The position numbers and the translations under genes were made by a program. The notes below the pieces were generated by a model that worked only from the letters and a program-made list of their open reading frames with translations, ran no database searches and had not been told where the DNA came from. Shown one piece after another: positions 91 to 20,289 of a stretch of DNA of 21,339 bases (the first letter of the stretch is position 1; each line of letters begins with the position of its first letter). The stretch spans positions 1 to 21,339 of the IMG/VR virus record IMGVR_UViG_3300005329_000366. One strand, given 5' to 3'. Source of the DNA: a virus.

Positions 91-365
91 CAGGCCACCT
101 CGTTGTGGGGTTGGTGGGTGGTGCGACTGGTGGGATTGCCGCCGCACTTGGCGCAGGTGCACTGGTCCGGCGGCGGGGTCGGGCCGGTGGCTGCAGTGCC
201 GAGGGGCCAGCCGCCGAAGTGGGTGATCCGGTAGCCGGGGTCGGGGACCGCGGTGAGGCGGGCCGGCTTCGGCTTGGCCGGGGCGGCACCGACGAGGGAG
301 AGCAGGTAGTCCTTGAGGTCGCCCTGCTCGCGCATGGCGGCGATGTCTTCAACGTTGTGGTTCAT
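90..365 (-). CDS. Small hypothetical protein with C-terminal Cys/His cluster
   Basis: A 91 aa protein of unrecognised family. The N-terminus (about 1-28) is predicted helical, a Pro/Ala linker follows, and the C-terminus carries C69-x-C71-x2-C74 and H84/H87, a possible small zinc site. The start is taken as the ATG that overlaps the helicase stop codon (TGATG). A GTG one codon upstream is equally possible. Its own stop overlaps the ATG of the PP-loop gene, so the three genes are almost certainly translationally coupled. Function unknown; its position suggests a replication or DNA-modification accessory. Confidence 0.7.
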   Translation of the reverse strand: MNHNVEDIAAMREQGDLKDYLLSLVGAAPAKPKPARLTAVPDPGYRITHFGGWPLGTAATGPTPPPDQCTCAKCGGNPTSRTTHQPHNEVA

Positions 366-1729
366 CACGGGGCCGCCATATCGACGAAAGATGCGTAGTG
401 GAGTTGCGCGGCGACGATGATCGTTCCGATCTGGCCGCCGCGGTGCTTGTCGACGATCAGGTCCGCCTCACCGGCGCGGGGACTTTCGCGCTCGTAGGCG
501 TCGTCGCGGTGCAGCAGGATGACGATGTCGGCGTCCTGCTCGATGGATCCGGACTCGCGCAGGTCGGACTTCATGGGCCGCTTGTCCTGGCGGTGTTCGG
601 GTCCGCGGTTGAGCTGCGCCAGGATGATCACTGTGATGCCGAATTCGCGGGCGAGGAGCTTCATCCCGCGGGACAGCTTGGAGACTTCGTTCTGCCGGTT
701 CTCCGCCTTGGGGGCGGTCATCAACTGCAGGTAGTCGACGATGACGAGGCGCAGGCCGTCGGCGCGGACGTGGTGGCGGACCTTGGCGCGCAGGGCGGGC
801 AGGGTGAGGCTGGAGACGTCGTCGATGTAGAGCGGCGCGGCTGCGATCTTCTGTCCGGCCGCGGCGGCGCGGGCGACGCCGGCGTCGTCGACGATGCCCT
901 GCTTCAGGTGGTGCAGGGCGACCCGGGCTTCGGCGCACAGCAGCCCGTTGGTGATCTCGTCTTCGCTCATTTCGAGCGTGTGGAACAGCGTCGGGATGCC
1001 ATTGGTGACTGCTGCGGCGCGGGCGAACCCGGACGCGATCGTCGACTTGCCCATGGCGGGGCGGGCGCCGATGACGACCATCTGGCCGGGCGCCCAGCCG
1101 CCGCACAGCAGCGCGTCGAGATCGAGGAAGCCGGTGGGGGTGCGGTCTTCCTTGGTGGGCGGGGTGATGCAGCGTTCGAGGGCGGCGCCGATCAGTTCGC
1201 GGACGTGCTTGGCCTGCTTCGCGGCGTCGGGCTTGGCGACTCCGTCGAGGGCGTCCTGAAGGGCGGCGACGTCGGCGTCAGGGTCGAAGGCGGCGCTGTT
1301 TCCGCGGCCGGTGGCGTCGTGGCCGAGGGCGACGATGCGGGCGGCGACGGCCTTGTCGGCGACCTTCTTCGCGTACCAGGCGGCGGCGCCGGGCTGGGCG
1401 TAGTCGTAGATCTGGCGGAGGTCTTGTTCGAGGAGGGGGCGGGCGACCATGCGGCCGTCGGCGTGCCAGGTCTCGAGCTGGCGGGCTACGGGCAGGTAGC
1501 GGATCTCGCCGTCGCGGAAGCTGGTGCGGAGTTCTTCGACGGCGTACCAGACCCACCGGTACTGCTCGGTGCTGATGTCGGCGGGGTCGAAGCCTTCGGC
1601 GGCGAGTTCGTCGACGACGTCGGGGCGGGCCATGGCGGAGGCGATGAGGACTTTCTCGGCCTCCTGGTCGCGGGGCATTTTGGGGCCGATGTCGTCGATG
1701 GCGTCGGCCCAGTCGATCTCGGTGGTCAC
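365..1729 (-). CDS. dnaB: DnaB-like replicative DNA helicase
   Basis: A 454 aa hexameric 5'-3' helicase expected to unwind the phage replication fork. Residues 15-130 match the helical DnaB N-terminal domain. The RecA-like core begins near 180 with Walker A GARPAMGKS (221-229) and Walker B LVIVDYLQL (328-336). AQLNR (371-375) and SDLRESGSIEQDAD (388-401) are DnaB H3/H4-type motifs, and KHRGG (428-432) supplies the arginine finger region. The length is typical of DnaB. The GTG start at 1729 overlaps the loader stop by four bases (GTGA). An open frame continues far upstream, but it lies inside the loader and initiator genes and is a shadow. Immediate neighbours are its likely loader and initiator. 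Confidence 0.95.
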   Translation of the reverse strand: MTTEIDWADAIDDIGPKMPRDQEAEKVLIASAMARPDVVDELAAEGFDPADISTEQYRWVWYAVEELRTSFRDGEIRYLPVARQLETWHADGRMVARPLLEQDLRQIYDYAQPGAAAWYAKKVADKAVAARIVALGHDATGRGNSAAFDPDADVAALQDALDGVAKPDAAKQAKHVRELIGAALERCITPPTKEDRTPTGFLDLDALLCGGWAPGQMVVIGARPAMGKSTIASGFARAAAVTNGIPTLFHTLEMSEDEITNGLLCAEARVALHHLKQGIVDDAGVARAAAAGQKIAAAPLYIDDVSSLTLPALRAKVRHHVRADGLRLVIVDYLQLMTAPKAENRQNEVSKLSRGMKLLAREFGITVIILAQLNRGPEHRQDKRPMKSDLRESGSIEQDADIVILLHRDDAYERESPRAGEADLIVDKHRGGQIGTIIVAAQLHYASFVDMAAP

Positions 1730-2439
1730 GCGGCCACACCCCGGCGGCGGTCCTCGCCCTTGAAGACGACGCGCTGGCACATCTCGATGAGCCGGCTGGT
1801 GACCCGGTCGCCGAGGCGTTCGGCGATCTCCTTCGGCAGCAGGTTGGAGGTGATGAGCGTCGGCATGTGGTGCTCGTACCGGTAGTTGATCAGCCGGAAG
1901 TTGACCTCTTCGGTGAACTCGGTCGGCTTGCGGTCGGCGCCGAGGTCGTCGATGAGGAGGATGCGGGCGTCGCGGTAGTGGCGGAACTCGGCTTCGGAGT
2001 CGACGCCGTGGCGGGGACGCAGGGCGGCGTACAGGTCGGCGGTGGTGGTGACGCCCCAGCGGGCGGCGACGCCGGTGAGGGCGAGTTCGCGGATGGCACC
2101 GTATGCCTGGTGCGTCTTGCCGGTTCCGGTCGGGCCGAGCAGCAGGAGGGAGCGGCCTTCGAAGACGGATGCGACGGGCGCGCTGCGGCTGGCCTGGTCT
2201 TCGCGAGCGCTGGCGACGAGTTCCTTCAGCCAGGTGTGGATCTCGGTGCTGTCGACAGATGCGGCCCGGTAGTGGGCGGGTACGAGCTTGGCGGCCTCGA
2301 CGATGGAATAGCGGGCGATATTGGCCGGGTGGTACGGGTCGGTGTCGCCGGAGTTGAGCCAGTCGAGGGTGATGCCGCGGGCGGCGAGCAGCTGCTCGAG
2401 GTGGTAGCGCTTGGGGTTGATCGGCGGAGTCCACTGCAT
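1726..2439 (-). CDS. DnaC/IstB-like AAA+ helicase loader
   Basis: A 237 aa AAA+ ATPase, the predicted loader of the adjacent DnaB-like helicase. A roughly 90-residue N-terminal region is the likely helicase-binding part. Walker A GPTGTGKT (102-109), Walker B ILLIDDLG (160-167), the sensor-1 stretch TLITSNL (194-200) and the arginine-finger-type RVTSRL (212-217) are all present, as in DnaC/DnaI/IstB proteins. The ATG at 2439 was chosen because AGGGATGGA lies about 8 bases upstream. An ATG at 2451 overlaps the previous gene more deeply and has poorer spacing. The order initiator, loader, helicase resembles lambda O-P and phage DnaD-DnaC-DnaB modules. Confidence 0.9.
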   Translation of the reverse strand: MQWTPPINPKRYHLEQLLAARGITLDWLNSGDTDPYHPANIARYSIVEAAKLVPAHYRAASVDSTEIHTWLKELVASAREDQASRSAPVASVFEGRSLLLLGPTGTGKTHQAYGAIRELALTGVAARWGVTTTADLYAALRPRHGVDSEAEFRHYRDARILLIDDLGADRKPTEFTEEVNFRLINYRYEHHMPTLITSNLLPKEIAERLGDRVTSRLIEMCQRVVFKGEDRRRGVAA

Positions 2440-2441
2440 GG

Positions 2442-3338
2442 TCAGTTCCATCCCTGGTCGTAGTCGGAGTGGTTCTCGGGGTTGCGGTGCGGGCCGCTGG
2501 GCGGCTGGGTGTCGATCGGGTCGTCGTAGCTGCCGGCGTCGAGCCAGGTGCTGGAGTACGGCGTGAATTGCTGGTCTTCGTTGCGGCGGGCGAAGGCGTA
2601 GGCCTTGGCGGCTTTGACGATGTGGCCGGGATCGGCTCCGCGGTCGAGAGCGTCGCGCCATGCCTGCTTGGTCTTCTCCGGCTTCATGGGCCGCGGGTAG
2701 CAGACCCAGAACTCGGCGAAGACGGGCCAGTGGTAGTCGCGCTCTTCGTCCGTAGCGGCTGCGTGTGACGAGTCGCGGGCGCCGTAAGAGTCTTTTGGTT
2801 CAGCTCTTGGTTCATCTTTTTGGTTTGGGTGACGTCCACGTCGCCCCTCCTGCGACGTGGACGTCACCCCATCCGCGACGTCGGCGTCACCGGTGACGTC
2901 CACGTCACCCCTGACGTCCACGTCACCCGTCAAATCGGACGCGACATCGTCTGAGCTGGGCCTTTTCTTTCCGCCGCGCCGACGGGATGACGCCAGCGTC
3001 ACCCGTGACGTCCGCGTCACCTCATCTGCGCTGGCGCGGCCTCCCGGAACGGTGCGCTCAAGGGCGAGGTCGTAGACCTCCGGGCGCTTCCCCTCGGGAA
3101 GGTGCGCGGCCTTCGACTGGTCGCCGAGGCGGATGAAGCCGAGCTCTCGCAGCTGTTTGAGGTCACGCTGGACGGACCGCTCGGCCTTGCAGGTGTACGC
3201 GGCCAGCCGGGCCACAGACGGGTACGCCCCGCGGCCCTTCTTGTCGGCGTGACGCGCAAGCCCGCTCAGCGTGGCGACGAGCTGCGCCGGCATCGGCGGA
3301 GCCTTTTCGAGTGCCCAGTCCATGGCCTCAGTGCTCAC
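2442..3338 (-). CDS. Phage replication initiator (winged-helix, replisome organiser-like)
   Basis: A 298 aa protein in three parts. The N-terminal winged-helix domain (about 20-92) contains SVARLAAYTCKAERSVQRDL, a MarR-like recognition region. A low-complexity, acidic Asp/Val-rich linker (about 105-200) follows. The C-terminal block (about 205-275, FWVCYPRP ... AWRDALDRG ... FTPYSSTWLDAGSYDD) resembles the C-terminal segment of phage replisome organisers that contact the helicase or loader. The linker is Asp-Val repetitive because its DNA holds seven palindromic iterons, so the gene seems to contain its own origin, as lambda O does. The start is a GTG with only a weak GAGAAGAGA Shine-Dalgarno; an ATG five codons in is an alternative. 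Just upstream sits its own promoter region, insulated by a terminator. Confidence 0.85.
   Translation of the reverse strand: MSTEAMDWALEKAPPMPAQLVATLSGLARHADKKGRGAYPSVARLAAYTCKAERSVQRDLKQLRELGFIRLGDQSKAAHLPEGKRPEVYDLALERTVPGGRASADEVTRTSRVTLASSRRRGGKKRPSSDDVASDLTGDVDVRGDVDVTGDADVADGVTSTSQEGRRGRHPNQKDEPRAEPKDSYGARDSSHAAATDEERDYHWPVFAEFWVCYPRPMKPEKTKQAWRDALDRGADPGHIVKAAKAYAFARRNEDQQFTPYSSTWLDAGSYDDPIDTQPPSGPHRNPENHSDYDQGWN
2792..2828. repeat. Three tandem T-rich 12-13-mers, candidate DNA unwinding element
   Basis: CTTTTGGTTCAG (2792-2803), CTCTTGGTTCAT (2804-2815) and CTTTTTGGTTTGG (2816-2828) are three consecutive variants of one T-rich unit in otherwise GC-rich DNA. They directly abut the first palindromic iteron. 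The arrangement resembles the 13-mers of oriC and the AT-rich segment beside the lambda ori iterons. The repeats lie within codons of the initiator gene. Confidence 0.6.
2828..3021. repeat. Seven palindromic 18-bp iterons, candidate replication origin
   Basis: The unit GGTGACGTCCACGTCACC is a perfect 8-bp inverted repeat around CC. Copies or near copies sit at 2828-2845, 2851-2868, 2874-2891, 2892-2909 (perfect), 2910-2927, 2986-3003 and 3004-3021, so starts are separated by 23, 23, 18, 18, 76 and 18 bases. Most differ only in the outer two bases or one inner base. They fall in the linker-coding part of the initiator gene, next to a T-rich triple repeat. The regular spacing and the location in an initiator gene argue for initiator-binding iterons. 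Confidence 0.7.
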
Positions 3339-3769: not shown

Positions 3770-4639
3770 CTAGGCGGCGAGCTCGGCGTCGACGGCCGGC
3801 TCGTCGGGCGTCTGGTCGGGCTCCGGGTGCCGCAGTAGCTCCTGGTAGAGGTGGGCTTTGGTGACCCCGAGGCGTTCGGCGGCCTGCTCGACGGGCACGC
3901 CGTAGGCGAAGAGTTCGCGGGCGTCGGCGGCGAGGAGCGCCCCCTTGCCGATGCCGTAGAGGGGCTCGAAGTGGGGGTCGTCGATGGCGTCCATGCGGTC
4001 GGCCCAGTACTTGGGGGGCGCCCACCGGTTGGCCTTGGCCCACTCACGGGCGTGCCGCGCCTTGTGCCGGGGCACGCCGTGGCTTTCGGGCCGGAGGGCG
4101 GCGACGCGCGGGTAGCCGTCGGCGATGCGGTCGCGGGTGAAGGTGTAGATCCGTTCGACTCGGAGGATCTGTTCGGGCCGCTGCCGGTTCATGCCGAGCT
4201 GCCGGCCGACGTGCAGGAGGGGCCAGCCGCGGGCGACGAGGGCCTGGATGCGGCGGTGGGCGCCGGTGGCGTCGACGCGGGATGGGGATGCTGCTGCCGG
4301 TTTGACGGCGAGGACTTTCGCGGCGAACTCGGCGGAGGTGCGGTGGCGCACGCCGCGGCGGGTGCCCCGGCTTTGGATGAGGTCGGTGATGTTTTCGCGG
4401 TCGGTGCCGGCGAGGTCGGCGATGCGCCACGGGGTGAGGCCGGCGGCGAGGAGGCGGTGTACGTGTTCGCGGACGGGTGCGGCGTCTTGGAGGGGCTGCC
4501 AGGTTCCGGCGCGGAGTGCCTGGTTGCGTTCGCGGTGCCACGCGTTTTTGCGTTCGACGCATTCGGGGAGCCGGCAGCCGTAGTTGGTGTAGCAGGTGAG
4601 GGTGTTGTGGTGGGGGGCTTCGCGGACGGCGGTGGTCAC
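3770..4639 (-). CDS. Multi-HTH DNA-binding protein with N-terminal Cys motif
   Basis: A 289 aa protein. Residues 12-47 (CYTNYGCRLPECVERKNAWH) resemble the Cys-rich YxxGCRCxxC-type segment seen at the N-terminus of many actinophage DNA-binding proteins (C16, C22, C27). Three helix-turn-helix-like segments follow: about 59-92, 128-162 (GWPLLHVGRQLGMNRQRPEQIL) and 243-272 (GVPVEQAAERLGVTKAHLYQEL). The GTG at 4639 was chosen because GAGAGGAGGAC lies just upstream and the codon overlaps the previous stop (GTGA). It is the last gene before the 3739 terminator. It probably binds DNA as a regulator or a nucleoid or replication accessory. The precise role is unknown. Confidence 0.8.
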   Translation of the reverse strand: MTTAVREAPHHNTLTCYTNYGCRLPECVERKNAWHRERNQALRAGTWQPLQDAAPVREHVHRLLAAGLTPWRIADLAGTDRENITDLIQSRGTRRGVRHRTSAEFAAKVLAVKPAAASPSRVDATGAHRRIQALVARGWPLLHVGRQLGMNRQRPEQILRVERIYTFTRDRIADGYPRVAALRPESHGVPRHKARHAREWAKANRWAPPKYWADRMDAIDDPHFEPLYGIGKGALLAADARELFAYGVPVEQAAERLGVTKAHLYQELLRHPEPDQTPDEPAVDAELAA

Positions 4640-5757: not shown

Positions 5758-6420
5758 CTAGAAGGGCGGTTCTGACGGGTCGCGGCCGAGGGTGAGTTCG
5801 GTGATCCGCTTCTCGATGTCGCCGGTGAGGTCGGCGCCTTCGGCCTTCAGGGCGAAGGTGATGCTTCGGGCGATGTTCTGGCTGTCGCCTTCGCTGATGA
5901 GCGCGGCGGCGAGCAGGTCGGCGAGGACCCGACGGACCGGCTCGGGAACCTGTGCGGTGATGTCGGGCGCCTTGGTCCACGGGTCCCGTTGGGAGGCGGC
6001 GATCCATCCGCTGGCCGGAGCGAGGGATGCCGGGGTCTTGTAGGCGGATCGCGGGTCCCAGCCGTCGTCGGAGAGGCGGGCGTCGACGAGGTCGTCGACG
6101 TTGCAGTGGGCTTCGTCGAGCGCCTTACTGAGCTCGATGGCGGCCTTCCAGCGGTCGTTCTCTCGGCTGGCGAGCCCCTCGGCGATGTGTACGGCGACGA
6201 GGCTGCGGGTGTCGTCGAAGCGGCGGCGCAGCGAGTGGAGCGCCTCGCGCAGGTCGGCGGTCCGTGCGGCCTGCTCCTCGTCGCGGGCGAGCGTGGCGTG
6301 GACCTGAGCTTCGGCGATGAGCCGGTCGGCTTCGGGGTTGTGGCCTTCGAAGGTGGTGTTCTTGTCCTCGCGAGAGGCGGCCAGCAGGTTGAGGGCTTCG
6401 GCGCGGTGGTCGATGCTCAC
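5758..6420 (-). CDS. Hypothetical protein downstream of RecT
   Basis: A 220 aa acidic protein, mostly helical. Residues about 30-95 are rich in Glu, Arg and Ala (EAQVHATLARDEEQAARTADL and beyond) and probably form a coiled coil. Residues 120-150 hold a Trp/Ser-rich stretch (DDGWDPRSAYKTP, ASGWIAASQRDPW), and the C-terminus is again helical. The GTG start overlaps the recT stop (GTGA), implying coupled expression with the recombination pair. No known family recognised. Confidence 0.75.
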   Translation of the reverse strand: MSIDHRAEALNLLAASREDKNTTFEGHNPEADRLIAEAQVHATLARDEEQAARTADLREALHSLRRRFDDTRSLVAVHIAEGLASRENDRWKAAIELSKALDEAHCNVDDLVDARLSDDGWDPRSAYKTPASLAPASGWIAASQRDPWTKAPDITAQVPEPVRRVLADLLAAALISEGDSQNIARSITFALKAEGADLTGDIEKRITELTLGRDPSEPPF

Positions 6421-7289
6421 GCGGCACCCGCCTTCTGGGCCGCCGCGGCACGCAGCTTGGCGGTGAGCTCGCGAATGGCGCCCGCCGCAACGTGATCGAG
6501 GGGTGCACCGAGCTCCTCGTAGGCGAGCTGGTCAACGTCGTTGGCGATGCCCATCTCGTTGCCGAAGTCCCGGAGTTCGCGGACCGCGGCGGTGTGCTCG
6601 TCGTCGACGTCGACGTCGACGACGTCCGAGGTGTCCGACTGCGGGGTGGGTGCCGTCGGCGCGGTGAGGGCGGCGACGGACAGCGGGGCCCGCTTCTGCT
6701 GGACGACCTCCCCGTGGGTGTAGCCGTCAAGCTCCTCGGCCGCATACGGCATGCCGTGCAGGACGTCTGCGGCAACCAGCCGGCAGATCTCCCCGGTGGC
6801 GCGGGCGATCAGCATCGTCTTCGGCTGCTTCTTCCACTGGTCCTTGCCGAGGAGGCCGAGCTGGCGGGCACGGTCGGTGTCCCACTCGACTTCCTGCCAC
6901 TTCTCGGCGCCCTTCCGGCGGCCCCGCATCTTGCAGTAGGAGTTCGTGGATTCGAGGAGCTCGATCTCGTGGCCCTTGGCCTGCAGCAGGCCGCGCATGG
7001 CGTGCGCGCGGAGTGCGGGCTGCCCCTGGATGACGTCGATGGACTTGAGGGACGTCATGGGCTGGATGCCGAGCTCGTGTCCGGCGAGGATCACGGCGGT
7101 GACCTCGTCGGGCTTGCCGCGGTAGGCGCCGGCCAGGCTGGTGGTGGCGATGTTCGCGGCGATGTTGGAGATGGCGATGGCGTCGCGGGCCCACGCCTCC
7201 AGCTCCGACTCGGTGGGCGGGCTGGCTTCGAGGTGGGCGACGACCGCGGCGGTCTCTTCGTCGCGGGTGGCGATTTCGTTCGAGGTCAC
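6417..7289 (-). CDS. recT: RecT-family single-strand annealing protein
   Basis: A 290 aa protein. GHELGIQPMTSLKSIDVIQG (70-89), PALRAHAMRGLLQAKG (91-106) and QPKTMLIARATGEICRLVAA (155-174) are hallmark RecT/Bet-superfamily segments. The C-terminus (200-235) is an Asp/Val-rich linker followed by a helical tail. The protein anneals complementary single strands during phage recombination, pairing with a 5'-3' exonuclease. The nuclease is encoded immediately upstream with a GTGA overlap. The GTG at 7289 is chosen over an upstream in-frame start because the extension would read through the nuclease gene. Confidence 0.92.
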   Translation of the reverse strand: MTSNEIATRDEETAAVVAHLEASPPTESELEAWARDAIAISNIAANIATTSLAGAYRGKPDEVTAVILAGHELGIQPMTSLKSIDVIQGQPALRAHAMRGLLQAKGHEIELLESTNSYCKMRGRRKGAEKWQEVEWDTDRARQLGLLGKDQWKKQPKTMLIARATGEICRLVAADVLHGMPYAAEELDGYTHGEVVQQKRAPLSVAALTAPTAPTPQSDTSDVVDVDVDDEHTAAVRELRDFGNEMGIANDVDQLAYEELGAPLDHVAAGAIRELTAKLRAAAAQKAGAA

Positions 7290-8152
7290 TTCAGAAACTC
7301 CTCGGCTTGGCGCAGGGTTGCCCAGCTCGGCATTCCGATCTGGGGGATCTCGGCGACGGGCCCGGTCCAGTCGGGCCACTCGTCGTTGGCGGTGCAGTCG
7401 CGATAGATGCGCAGGGCGACTTCGTTGCGCCCGCGGCCGATGTCCTGGTCCTGGTCCCTCAGCTCGCGGACCGTGACGAGGTACGGCGCCTTCTTCGACT
7501 GGACGACGAAGAGGAAGCGCGCGCCTTCGGGTGCGAGTCCAGCGGCCTCGACGCCGTCGAGGTAGAGGGCGCCTTGCTGGTGGTAGCTGTAGGACTCGAT
7601 GGCCTTGCTGAAGCCGTCCGGGCTGGCGTCGGCTGCGGTCTTCAGGTCGACGACGAGCGTCACGTCGGGGCGCACCATCAGCCAGTCCGGGCGGACACGG
7701 ACACGGACGCCGGTCTCGGCGTGAGTCCAGTAGATGGAGCGCTCCGGGATGCCGTTGCCGAGCGTGAACAGCGGGCCGGCCTGCGGGTGCTGGCGGATCG
7801 CGTCGGCCATCGCCTGCACCTGCTCGCCCTCATGGAAGAGCAGCGGCACGGCGCCGTCAGCGCGGATCGCGTCGCGCTCCTCGCGGGCCGCCTTGGTACG
7901 CCAGTCCTCCCACCCAGTGACGACGATCTCCTCGCCCTCGCCGAGGACGAGCTTGTGCGCGGCGTGCCCGAGGTCGAACTCCCGCTTCGGCGGCTGCGGG
8001 TGGTCGCGGTCGTATTTGAACTGGGCGGGGCAGCCGGGGTTGAGGAGTGCGCGCAGCCCGGACGAGGAGATCGACGTCTTGTCGGCGTGGTACGACTCGG
8101 CGGATAGGCCGTCGACGACCTTCGGCGCCTCCACCTCCACCGCGGCGGTCAC
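7286..8152 (-). CDS. RecE-like PD-(D/E)XK exonuclease
   Basis: A 288 aa protein with the layout of phage exonuclease VIII/RecE-type nucleases (putative PDDEXK family, DUF3799-like). It contains GHAAHKLVL (62-70), RPDWLM (154-159) with D156, VVDLKTA (167-173) giving the D-x-K catalytic pair D169/K171, YHQQGALYLDGVEA (190-203) and the strand FLFVVQSKKAPYLVTV. It would resect double-stranded ends to give 3' tails for RecT. The GTG start overlaps the stop of the upstream zinc-ribbon gene (GTGA). An upstream open extension is a shadow of that gene. Confidence 0.88.
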   Translation of the reverse strand: MTAAVEVEAPKVVDGLSAESYHADKTSISSSGLRALLNPGCPAQFKYDRDHPQPPKREFDLGHAAHKLVLGEGEEIVVTGWEDWRTKAAREERDAIRADGAVPLLFHEGEQVQAMADAIRQHPQAGPLFTLGNGIPERSIYWTHAETGVRVRVRPDWLMVRPDVTLVVDLKTAADASPDGFSKAIESYSYHQQGALYLDGVEAAGLAPEGARFLFVVQSKKAPYLVTVRELRDQDQDIGRGRNEVALRIYRDCTANDEWPDWTGPVAEIPQIGMPSWATLRQAEEFLK

Positions 8153-9173: not shown

Positions 9174-10361
9174 TCAGCTGGTGGCGTCGGCCGGTTCGGC
9201 GGGCTGCGGCTTGACGGCCTTCCACTCGGCGGCCTCGGCGTCGAAAGCGACGAACGGGTTGTCGTCGACGCGGAAGGCGATGTCCGCCTGCTTGGCGTCG
9301 TTCAGAGCACGGGCGAGTCGGAGCGCCCACTTGCGGGGCTCTTCCGCCATCTGCTTGGCGGCCCGCTTCTCGTGGTCGTCGTGCCACTTCTGCGGGTTGA
9401 AGCCGGACTCTTCGGCCATGTCCCACGCCCACTCGCCGAGTTCGCCCGAGTCGAGCTGTTCGGCGGTGTCGTCGACGACGGCCTGCGCGGCCCGCGGGTC
9501 GACCTGATGGAGGGCGTCGAGGTAGCGGTAGGCCATCCAGTCGGAGACGCCGGAGCGGATGTGCGCGAACCAGGCGTCCTGATCGTCGTCGAAGGACGTG
9601 TTGTAGACGTTCGACGTCGAGTCGAGGACCCCCTTGAGGAGGTTCGCTGCGGTCTCGCTGATGTCGTGGCTGGCGTCGAAACGGGGCGGCGTGGGCTTCG
9701 GCAGGCTGGCCATGTCGACGTCCGTCGCCCCGGCGGACAGCGTCCACAGCCACAGACTCTGTGCGTCGCCGAAGGTCTGGTTCTTCGACGGGCCGATGCC
9801 GCCGCCGCTGGTGGGCATCTGTGCGCCGATGAAGTCCTCTCCGAAGAACAGGACGGCCTTACGGTCGGCGGTCACTCGGATACGGAGGCTCTGCTCGGCC
9901 GATGCCCAGCGCCCCATGTAGTCCGTGTTGAGGGCGGGGAACGGTTCGCCGTCGACGGTCTGGTCGGCGATGCGGCGGAACAGGCCGCGCCAGTCCGGGT
10001 ATTCCAGGGCGGTGTTGACGGCGATGTTCAGGTCGGTGCGGGGGCCTTCGAAGACGAGGCGGTCCTTGGCGAGGCTGACGGTGATCCAGTCGGCGCCCTT
10101 CATGGCGCGCGCCCACTCGCGGACGGTGGCGACCTGCTCGCCGGGCAGGAGCGCCGCCCACGGCTCCTGGTCGCAGTCGCCGTGGTTGAGGCCGTAGCGG
10201 GCAGCGGCGAGCGTGTAGGCGTCGGTGGCTACCGTGTGCAGGTAGCGGGCGTCGGCGTCGAAGCGGATGCCGTGCAGCTGCTCGTGGTGGTCGCCGCCCA
10301 TGTGAGCGGTCGTCTTGTCGAGCATGAGCCCCAGCTGGTGGGCGTTGATCGTGACGGACAA
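9174..10361 (-). CDS. DNA polymerase sliding-clamp (DnaN)-like protein, two-domain form
   Basis: A 395 aa protein. HGIRFDADARYLHTVATDAY (30-49) is the classic beta-clamp strand-helix signature (bacterial versions read GxxFxxxxxxLxTVATDGHRLA) of domain 2. YPDWRGLF (121-128) corresponds to the FPDYRRV junction between domains 2 and 3. ALNTDYMGRWASA ... AVLFFGEDFIGAQMPT (143-183) matches the domain 3 helix and final strand. A domain 1 equivalent is missing, and about 210 residues of unknown, acidic, Trp-rich sequence follow. The start is TTG with AGGAG six bases upstream; no better ATG or GTG exists nearby. It likely tethers a polymerase or repair factor to phage DNA. Confidence 0.8.
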   Translation of the reverse strand: MSVTINAHQLGLMLDKTTAHMGGDHHEQLHGIRFDADARYLHTVATDAYTLAAARYGLNHGDCDQEPWAALLPGEQVATVREWARAMKGADWITVSLAKDRLVFEGPRTDLNIAVNTALEYPDWRGLFRRIADQTVDGEPFPALNTDYMGRWASAEQSLRIRVTADRKAVLFFGEDFIGAQMPTSGGGIGPSKNQTFGDAQSLWLWTLSAGATDVDMASLPKPTPPRFDASHDISETAANLLKGVLDSTSNVYNTSFDDDQDAWFAHIRSGVSDWMAYRYLDALHQVDPRAAQAVVDDTAEQLDSGELGEWAWDMAEESGFNPQKWHDDHEKRAAKQMAEEPRKWALRLARALNDAKQADIAFRVDDNPFVAFDAEAAEWKAVKPQPAEPADATS

Positions 10362-15066: not shown

Positions 15067-16479
15067 ATGCCGGGCTACATCGAAGACAGGTGGCTCAAGA
15101 AGGGCCCGGACGGCAAGCGCAACGTGCGCACCAGCCTGTACGGCGTCGGCAAACGCTACAAGGTCGCAGGCATCCCCGGAGTGCGGGCCCGCTCCTTTCC
15201 CGACAGGCAGAAGAAGGCCGCCGAAGATTGGCTGGCTACAGCCCTGTCGGACAGCAACAAGGGCGAGTTCGTTGACCCGCGTGACGGCAACTTGCTGCTG
15301 CGCGAGTACGTCGAGAAGCACTGGTGGCCCTCTCGGACCGGCGACCCAGCCACGCTGGAGACCGTCAGCCGCAGGGTCCGCAACCAGATCCTCCCCTATC
15401 TCGGCTCCCTGCCGCTGCGTCAGATCAAGGTCGACACCCTCCGACAGTGGCTCAAGGAGCTTGAAGGCGTCATCTCGCCCGGCACCGCAGTCGTCGTGTG
15501 GGGCTACCTCAACAACATCCTCGACTGCGCCGTCGACGACGAACGCATCCGCAAGAACCCGTGCCGGGCCAAGACCATCAAGGCGCCCGTCAAGCCGCCC
15601 ACGAAGGCGCGCGCCTGGACCCGCGAACGGGTGGCCGCCGTGCAGGCCGCACTGCCCGCCGCGTATCAGGTCCTCGTCGACATCGGCGCCGGCGCCGGCC
15701 TGCGTCACGGCGAGGCCCTCGGCCTGTCCGAGGACGACGTCGACTTCGAGGCCGGCGTCATCCATGTGCGCCGCCAGGTCCGCAGCGTCAACGGGAAGCC
15801 GGTGTTCTCACTGCCCAAGGGGAACAAGACACGCGTAGTGCCGCTGTCCGACTACCTTGCCGCGCGCATCCGGGAGCACATCGCCGCTTTCTCCCCGACT
15901 GCGGTGACGCTGCCGTGGAAAGACCCGCGCCCGCCGACGACCAAGGTGGAGGCGAAGGAGCGGGCTCCGCAGACGCACCGGCTGCTGGTGGCCAACAGCA
16001 ACAAGGCGGCGGTGCGGGCGAACATGTGGAACGAGAACTACTGGAAGCGGGCGCTGGCCACAGCGGGCGTCATCCCCCAGCCGGAGAAGGTGGTCCGCAA
16101 GGACGGGCGCGGGACTCGCCTCGTCTACCAGGCCGCGCACGAGCACGGCTTTCACTGCCTGCGCCACACGTATGCGAGCGTGCAGCTGGACTCGCGGGAG
16201 AATCCCGTGGCAGTCTCGAAGTGGCTCGGCCACGCCGATGCGGCGATCACGCTCAGGGTGTACGGACACTTCCTGCCCGATGCGGACGGCCGGGGCCGGC
16301 AGGCGATGGACGCCTGGTTCGCTTCCTCCCCACCTGTTTCTGCGTCATCCTCCCTGGACGCTCCCTGCGACGAGATCGCCGAAGGGGAGGCGCCGGATTC
16401 GGGGCGGTTGCGGGCCGTCGAGGGCGACTCCGACGAGACCTCTGAAAGCGGCCCTGACCTGGGCGAAGATGTGGCGTAG
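15067..16479 (+). CDS. int: Tyrosine site-specific recombinase (integrase)
   Basis: A 470 aa tyrosine recombinase that would integrate and excise the element. The N-terminal arm-binding region (1-60) and the SAM-like core-binding domain (about 75-170) precede the catalytic domain. Catalytic residues visible are R213 in GLRHGEAL, the beta-hairpin lysine K251 or K254 (PKGNKTR), H363-x-x-R366 in HCLRHTYA, H389 in WLGHA and Y399 in RVYGHF. A roughly 60-residue acidic C-terminal extension is longer than usual. The ATG has GGGGAG just upstream. Gene and protein are intact. Confidence 0.95.
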   Translation: MPGYIEDRWLKKGPDGKRNVRTSLYGVGKRYKVAGIPGVRARSFPDRQKKAAEDWLATALSDSNKGEFVDPRDGNLLLREYVEKHWWPSRTGDPATLETVSRRVRNQILPYLGSLPLRQIKVDTLRQWLKELEGVISPGTAVVVWGYLNNILDCAVDDERIRKNPCRAKTIKAPVKPPTKARAWTRERVAAVQAALPAAYQVLVDIGAGAGLRHGEALGLSEDDVDFEAGVIHVRRQVRSVNGKPVFSLPKGNKTRVVPLSDYLAARIREHIAAFSPTAVTLPWKDPRPPTTKVEAKERAPQTHRLLVANSNKAAVRANMWNENYWKRALATAGVIPQPEKVVRKDGRGTRLVYQAAHEHGFHCLRHTYASVQLDSRENPVAVSKWLGHADAAITLRVYGHFLPDADGRGRQAMDAWFASSPPVSASSSLDAPCDEIAEGEAPDSGRLRAVEGDSDETSESGPDLGEDVA

Positions 16480-20197: not shown

Positions 20198-20226
20198 TTG
20201 CTTGCGGTGTAGCTACACCCTAGAAT
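20198..20226 (+). promoter_or_regulatory. Promoter of the ribbon-helix-helix-like gene, operator in spacer
   Basis: TTGCTT (20198-20203), 17 bases, TAGAAT (20221-20226). The spacer is occupied by the 14-bp palindrome GGTGTAGCTACACC (20206-20219). Confidence 0.7.
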
Positions 20227-20289
20227 GCGGCGTAGCTACACCGCAACTACTCTCGGGAAGGATCAACGAGTGACTGACGTAGCTACACC
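20206..20289. repeat. Three GTAGCTAC palindromic operators
   Basis: GGTGTAGCTACACC (20206-20219, perfect palindrome), GGCGTAGCTACACC (20229-20242) and GACGTAGCTACACC (20276-20289). The first lies between -35 and -10 of the plus promoter. The second lies in the spacer of the minus promoter and over the plus start point. The third lies just inside the plus coding sequence. Confidence 0.75.
20217..20246 (-). promoter_or_regulatory. Divergent promoter toward the 20177 gene
   Basis: On the minus strand TTGCGG (20246-20241), 18 bases, TAGGGT (20222-20217). It overlaps the plus promoter, and the second palindrome falls in its spacer, so one repressor could close both. Confidence 0.55.

Follow-up and report, generated by a model that had tools for sequence, protein, structure and literature searches.

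The initiator gene and its neighbourhood

The DNA analysed here, hereafter the window, is the whole of the 21,339-bp virus record IMGVR_UViG_3300005329_000366, and all the evidence presented is computational. It contains a gene for a replication initiator (table 1), a member of the HTH_36 phage replication initiators (PHROG 270/1032). The N-terminal HTH_36 domain scores 39 bits against a Pfam cut-off of 25 bits, and the protein matches two PHROG families of replication initiation proteins, phrog_270 over residues 4-286 (4e-20) and phrog_1032 over residues 1-120 (5e-20). Weaker matches to the O-like PHROGs 391, 678 and 345 were also obtained, the same three that lambda O matches. The next two genes had been annotated initially as a DnaC-like loader and a DnaB-like helicase, and the profile matches confirm both assignments: the loader gene begins 2 nt downstream of the initiator gene and is overlapped by the helicase gene over 4 nt. 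Loader and helicase genes adjoin the initiator gene in the window and in most close relatives.

Elsewhere in the window, genes for a RecT-like annealing protein and a phage integrase were identified, and the record is regarded as an early region of a temperate phage. The product of a gene with a weak sliding-clamp match is possibly a phage-encoded DnaN-like processivity factor. Near the right end, three copies of a palindromic motif lie directly ahead of a rightward open reading frame or across its start, and look like a repressor operator. Rfam and tRNA scans of the whole window returned nothing.

Table 1. Features of the window. Iterons are numbered in gene order, and their matches to the 18-bp consensus are counted on the better strand.
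Feature	Position	Strand	Sequence or match	Remarks
DnaB-like replicative helicase	365..1729	-	DnaB_C 6e-82; phrog_19 6e-85	454 aa
DnaC-like AAA+ helicase loader	1726..2439	-	phrog_50 4e-38; IstB_IS21 4e-11	237 aa
Replication initiator	2442..3338	-		298 aa, GTG start
Initiator N-terminal domain	residues 27-69		Pfam HTH_36	
Initiator linker	residues about 100-190			bears the putative origin
Initiator C-terminal domain	residues about 200-280			
Presumed DNA unwinding element	2786..2826	-		41 bp, three tandem 12/13-mers, low third-position GC
Iteron array	2828..3021			nt 318-511 of the 897-nt initiator gene
Iteron 7	2828..2845		GGTGACGTCCACGTCGCC	17/18; nearest the A/C-rich stretch
Iteron 6	2851..2868		TGCGACGTGGACGTCACC	16/18
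Iteron 5	2874..2891		CGCGACGTCGGCGTCACC	14/18, weak
Iteron 4	2892..2909		GGTGACGTCCACGTCACC	18/18, exact consensus
Iteron 3	2910..2927		CCTGACGTCCACGTCACC	16/18
Iteron 2	2986..3003		GATGACGCCAGCGTCACC	14/18, weak
Iteron 1	3004..3021		CGTGACGTCCGCGTCACC	16/18
Gene upstream of the initiator	3770..4639	-	phrog_1590 (function unknown) 3e-39	C-terminal homeodomain-like helix-turn-helix
RecT-like annealing protein	6417..7292	-	phrog_4171	
Possible DnaN-like factor	9174..10361	-	DNA_pol3_beta_2 2.5e-4	weak match, below cut-off
Phage integrase	15067..16479	+	Phage_integrase; phrog_1	
Palindromic motif, three copies	20203..20289		GTAGCTACACC	best copy GGTGTAGCTACACC at 20207-20220

Repeats inside the initiator gene

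Seven 18-bp sites lie within the linker-coding part of the initiator gene, with spacings of 23, 23, 18, 18, 76 and 18, exactly as initially annotated. Their consensus, GGTGACGT-CC-ACGTCACC, is made of two inverted 8-bp half-sites GGTGACGT flanking a non-palindromic CC. The description of these iterons as fully palindromic was therefore wrong: the centre is asymmetric, the consensus forms eight of nine palindromic pairs (the CC/GG centre being the exception) and single copies form six to eight of nine. Matches to the consensus with three mismatches or fewer number eight in the whole window against 0.07 expected from dinucleotide shuffles, and seven of these eight fall on five of the array sites; the weakest sites, at 2874 and 2986, have four mismatches.

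The linker had also been described as visibly shaped by the repeats into Asp-Val reiterations. This holds for three copies (GDVDVR, GDVDVT and GDADVA) but not for the other four (EVTRTSR, RVTLASS, GVTSTSQ and GRRGRHP), which are read in two other frames. Since the copies are read in all three frames, it is the DNA that is repeated and not a peptide.

On the C-terminal-coding side, the array is adjoined by the presumed unwinding element. The three tandem 12-13-mers already reported beside the iterons were recovered here, and read AACCAAAAAGATG, AACCAAGAGCTG and AACCAAAAGACT on the coding strand, after the iterons; they are A/C-rich on this strand and T-rich on the other, and each opens with AACC on the coding strand (2822-2825, 2809-2812 and 2797-2800). 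The GC content at codon position 3 is 0.14 within this stretch, versus about 0.85 in the flanking domains. The relatives of the initiator display a comparable profile: the family mean is about 0.85 over the N-terminal domain and 0.77 over the main iteron block, drops to 0.23 in codons 171-184 (14 codons past the last iteron) and rises again to 0.90 in the C-terminal domain.

Conservation of the sites at the DNA level

In almost every one of 12-15 relatives, Streptomyces genomes included, all seven sites occupy the same positions of the gene, although protein identity drops to about 59%; iteron 1 is degraded in one relative (L018). Within the 60-95 kb phage records of these relatives, near-exact sites concentrate in the initiator gene. 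For 14 distinct relatives, we redrew the linker codons from the family codon usage while keeping the peptide fixed (2,000 draws per gene). The recoded genes retained 74-76 ± 2.9 half-site matches, with a maximum of 85, versus 95-99 of 112 observed; iteron 5, taken singly, does not exceed the level expected from synonymous recoding (P 0.32). Moreover, an Asp of the D-V-D-V peptide is replaced by His in three relatives (L016, L025 and L043), where the site centre changes from GG to CC and both arms stay intact. The initial annotation had proposed to compare related phages for repeats that are kept while linker residues change, and the outcome favours its reading, as these three do so; the converse situation, i.e. 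a peptide kept with synonymous codons that destroy the sites, was seen nowhere in the close family. The iteron sites are conserved at the DNA level beyond what the peptide needs.

These observations bear directly on the idea that the repeats are a feature of the protein, namely a repetitive acidic Asp-Val linker selected at the protein level only. Three copies do encode G-D-V-D-V-type peptides, and the linker residues are well conserved. Nevertheless, the copies occur in three frames, the repeats are lost on synonymous recoding and the DNA dyad is retained through the Asp to His replacement, so that we rejected this reading and consider it virtually excluded; the spacing of the AACC repeat described below, which peaks at 11 nt and hence at no multiple of three, also argues against it.

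Arrays in the initiator family

Distant relatives of the initiator were retrieved from Arthrobacter, Gordonia, Bifidobacterium, Brevibacterium and Pseudomonas phages, from the Streptomyces plasmid pCQ3 and from Streptomyces chromosomes. The location of the repeats within the gene is the same in these relatives, but their sequence differs: GGGGTGAAC or GGGGTGCAC in Arthrobacter, CGGGGTGCAAC in Pseudomonas, CCCCATGACAC in Gordonia, GTGCAAACAG in Bifidobacterium, and GTCACGCACTC, CAGTCCCCC, CGGACCCC, TCCGGACCC and CTGACACTGA in Streptomyces.

Repeat clustering was assessed with a local 250-bp statistic against synonymous shuffles, which replaced an earlier whole-gene statistic because some control genes had reached z values of up to 4 with the latter. 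Lambda O, used as a positive control, reached a z of 11.2, versus -0.1 for lambda P and -1.2 to 1.8 for 22 control genes. Values of 4.6 to 31 were obtained for 42 of the 45 family genes; within this set, no clear array was detected in L053 (which has a different N-terminus), L061 (short and HNH-fused) and L068 (whose start is probably misread). The hold-out then comprised 44 representatives selected to have little similarity with those already used, although one member (L196) is the same contig as the previously examined L015. Here z was at least 4 in 35 genes, and the nine others, mostly C-terminal-only matches, had a z below 4 or too little usable sequence. Four Arthrobacter phages (L034, L037, L038 and L039) display an array and have DNA methyltransferase genes following the initiator; within some 2 kb no phage DnaC was detected, and these phages perhaps use the loader and helicase of their host.

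The family also informs on a possible role of the palindromes as hairpins in RNA or single-stranded DNA (attenuation, mRNA stability or a single-strand origin). The RNA folding of the region is strong (z = -8.5), as such a role would imply, but strong folding comes with inverted repeats as a matter of course, lambda O likewise reaching -5.7, and family members with direct repeats fold no better than shuffles (L034 -0.3, L038 0.8, L042 -0.5 and L070 -0.2). Hairpins are thus no shared property of the family, and we rejected this function, to which we attach next to no credence.

A recurrent strand-specific repeat after the iterons

The 70 nt that follow the iterons were compared with synonymous shuffles in 26 representatives, AACC having been spotted by eye in these discovery data before the count. 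Among the 256 tetranucleotides, AACC on the coding strand was the most enriched (45 versus 20.0 ± 2.6; GGTT, 3 versus 1.9). It ranked second in the hold-out (53 versus 33.2 ± 3.7, z 5.3; GGTT, 5 versus 4.3). When 52 genes were pooled, discovery set included, the distance between consecutive AACC was 11 nt in 19 cases (2.7 expected) and 10-13 nt in 41 cases (10.9 expected). The usual form of the repeat is GAACC[A/G]TC; the copies in the window, 13 and 12 nt apart, read AACCAA, and so fit the spacing and only in part the consensus. This motif accompanies both C-terminal types described below as well as unrelated iterons, and is not universal, as at least two copies were found in 17 of the 34 hold-out genes. 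A strand-specific GAACC[A/G]TC, repeated about every 11 nt downstream of unrelated iterons in Pseudomonas, Arthrobacter and Streptomyces phages, is new here. Dozens of related phages combine the same layout with different putative recognition repeats and a similar putative strand-opening repeat.

Tentatively, and with doubt slightly outweighing belief, we propose that the fast-evolving iterons represent half of an origin code. The other half would be a conserved, strand-specific code in single-stranded DNA, GAACC[A/G]TC about once per helical turn, that might be read during strand opening by a component common to these phages, be it the initiator, the loader or some other factor. Its logic would be comparable to the strand-specific DUE binding of plasmid Rep proteins or DnaA. 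Our first guess for the reader would be the initiator itself, since single-stranded DNA is a substrate of lambda O (PMC7466680) and sequence-specific binding to the single strands of a DUE is described for plasmid Rep proteins (PMC4081077). The recurrence of the repeat makes the question of what reads the opened strand directly testable.

Two exchangeable halves

Over 40 genes, repeat sets resemble one another where the first 95 residues of the proteins do (partial Mantel 0.51, 0 of 1,000 permutations), and their link with the C-terminal part is weak (0.14, 24 of 1,000). Repeat 7-mers were common to 76% of the 72 pairs alike only in the N-terminus and to 16% of the 68 pairs alike only in the C-terminus, for a background of 8%. 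Two loci illustrate this: L043 associates the N-terminus and iterons of the window with an unrelated C-terminus, and L046 joins an unrelated N-terminus and CGGACCCC repeats to a C-terminus of the window type, its loader and helicase also resembling those of the window (70% and 82%). Repeat type is co-inherited with the N-terminal domain, and C-terminal domains are swapped independently. The gene would thus consist of two exchangeable modules, a DNA-binding half together with its putative origin and a presumed helicase-recruiting half, with the breakpoint lying within the gene.

Most loci that match in the C-terminal half have a DnaC homologue next door, and no recognisable one was found next to loci matching in the N-terminal half only, some flanks being short. 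This pattern agrees with a contact between the C-terminal domain and the loader, like that between O and P in lambda. In L043, L044, L045 and L070, the FW..YP type of C-terminal half gives way to a second type (MRRWA...DYSTAQF..HYRSTG..R..WP..W..WI); no DnaC homologue was found beside it, and these initiators may bring the helicase by another route.

A putative replication origin

Taken together, these results make it very probable that a temperate Streptomyces phage has its replication origin at positions 2786-3021, within the very gene that encodes its initiator. The HTH_36 domain would bind the seven dyads, probably with one dimer on each, and the bound array would strain and open the adjoining low-GC stretch with its tandem coding-strand AACC. 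The C-terminal domain would then bring the DnaC-like loader, which would deliver the DnaB-like helicase encoded next door. Binding, strand opening, helicase delivery and replication activity are here what we infer from sequence comparison.

Palindromic sites in an early operon could also suit any dimeric regulator. The seven sites might then be operators of the initiator or of another regulator (for transcription control, or for restraint of excess copies through autoregulation or incompatibility), the origin lying elsewhere. Plasmid iterons often serve as origin and as regulatory sites alike. However, the sites lie about 320-510 nt within the coding region and not at a promoter. Most classes have a low-GC stretch with AACC repeats after the sites, and often a helicase loader gene as well. 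A repressor needs no adjacent unwinding stretch. Operators in place of an origin therefore seem improbable to us, and an operator function could be an additional role of the origin.

The GC skew follows gene direction and does not change sign at the site, be it in the window or in the 84-kb S. sparsogenes prophage (L016), and neither supports nor refutes the origin. AlphaFold models of the whole initiator and of its N-terminal domain were of low confidence (mean pLDDT 46.5 and 56.7) and show just a winged-helix-like order of helices and strands. A PDB fold search with these models gave no significant match, and a PDB sequence search with the initiator gave no relatives.

Comparison with known origins

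A search of open-access literature returned no description of the origins used by this HTH_36 family, and an earlier one may exist in subscription journals. The present results provide sequence-level putative origins for a large family of phage initiators mostly labelled 'hypothetical' or 'HTH protein', including those of cultured Arthrobacter and Pseudomonas phages. They also match DNA-binding domains with putative cognate sites in dozens of cases, a collection that could reveal the recognition code.

Among known systems, iteron plasmid origins (RK2, P1, F), with their mostly direct repeats and monomeric Rep, do not fit a locus whose sites are dyads inside the gene; plasmid direct repeats have themselves been contrasted with the inverted repeats of lambda (PMC5043065). 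The iteron plasmids of Streptomyces (pWTY27, pFP1, pFP11) likewise combine an actinobacterial initiator with iterons, which RepA binds in vitro (PMC3583192), but the iterons of pWTY27 occupy a 300-bp non-coding stretch beside the gene, and the initiator is of another type. For mycobacterial RepA prophages, an origin upstream of or within repA has been suggested, as for lambda O (PMC7157519); compared by description, they differ in that their authors found no repeats there.

The initial annotation recognized the logic of lambda O/ori in this locus, and the layout bears it out, with a putative origin in the initiator gene and the loader gene next. The palindromy, presented as a departure from lambda, is no distinction, as lambda iterons are also 18-bp inverted repeats, of hyphenated symmetry and bound by two O proteins (PMC6022878). 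In both cases, the initiator gene contains the inverted-repeat iterons (nt 349-433 of 900 in lambda, 318-511 of 897 in the window), with an AT-rich stretch on the 3' side, an N-terminal DNA-binding domain and a helicase-loader gene next. The differences concern the components: seven iterons of another sequence instead of four, AACC-type unwinding repeats instead of an A-rich tract, and a DnaC-like AAA+ loader instead of P, together with the phage's own DnaB-like helicase. The initiators differ as well: lambda O belongs to Phage_rep_O (PF04492, 6e-36), of which the window initiator is not a member, Pfam returning HTH_36 only (7e-10), and hhalign detected no direct profile similarity between the two proteins. 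The origins of Stx phages (P27, 933W) are similar in having six iterons in the O gene beside an AT-rich tract, and O dimers (PMC7466680), but their initiators are lambdoid O proteins of enterobacterial phages.

In Bacillus phage SPP1, oriL lies inside gene 38, gp39 being the loader and gp40 the helicase (PMC6316719). As compared through its paper, SPP1 shares with the window origin repeats in the initiator gene, an AT-rich unwinding region and a phage-encoded loader and DnaB-family helicase (PMC6316719), and differs by its direct repeats and its second origin, oriR. Tandem repeats under DNA-level selection in an initiator coding sequence, as putative binding sites, and a low-GC putative unwinding element directly 3' of the last iteron place the locus with the lambda O/ori and SPP1 gp38/oriL type, and it is likely that the same design is used here by a different initiator family.
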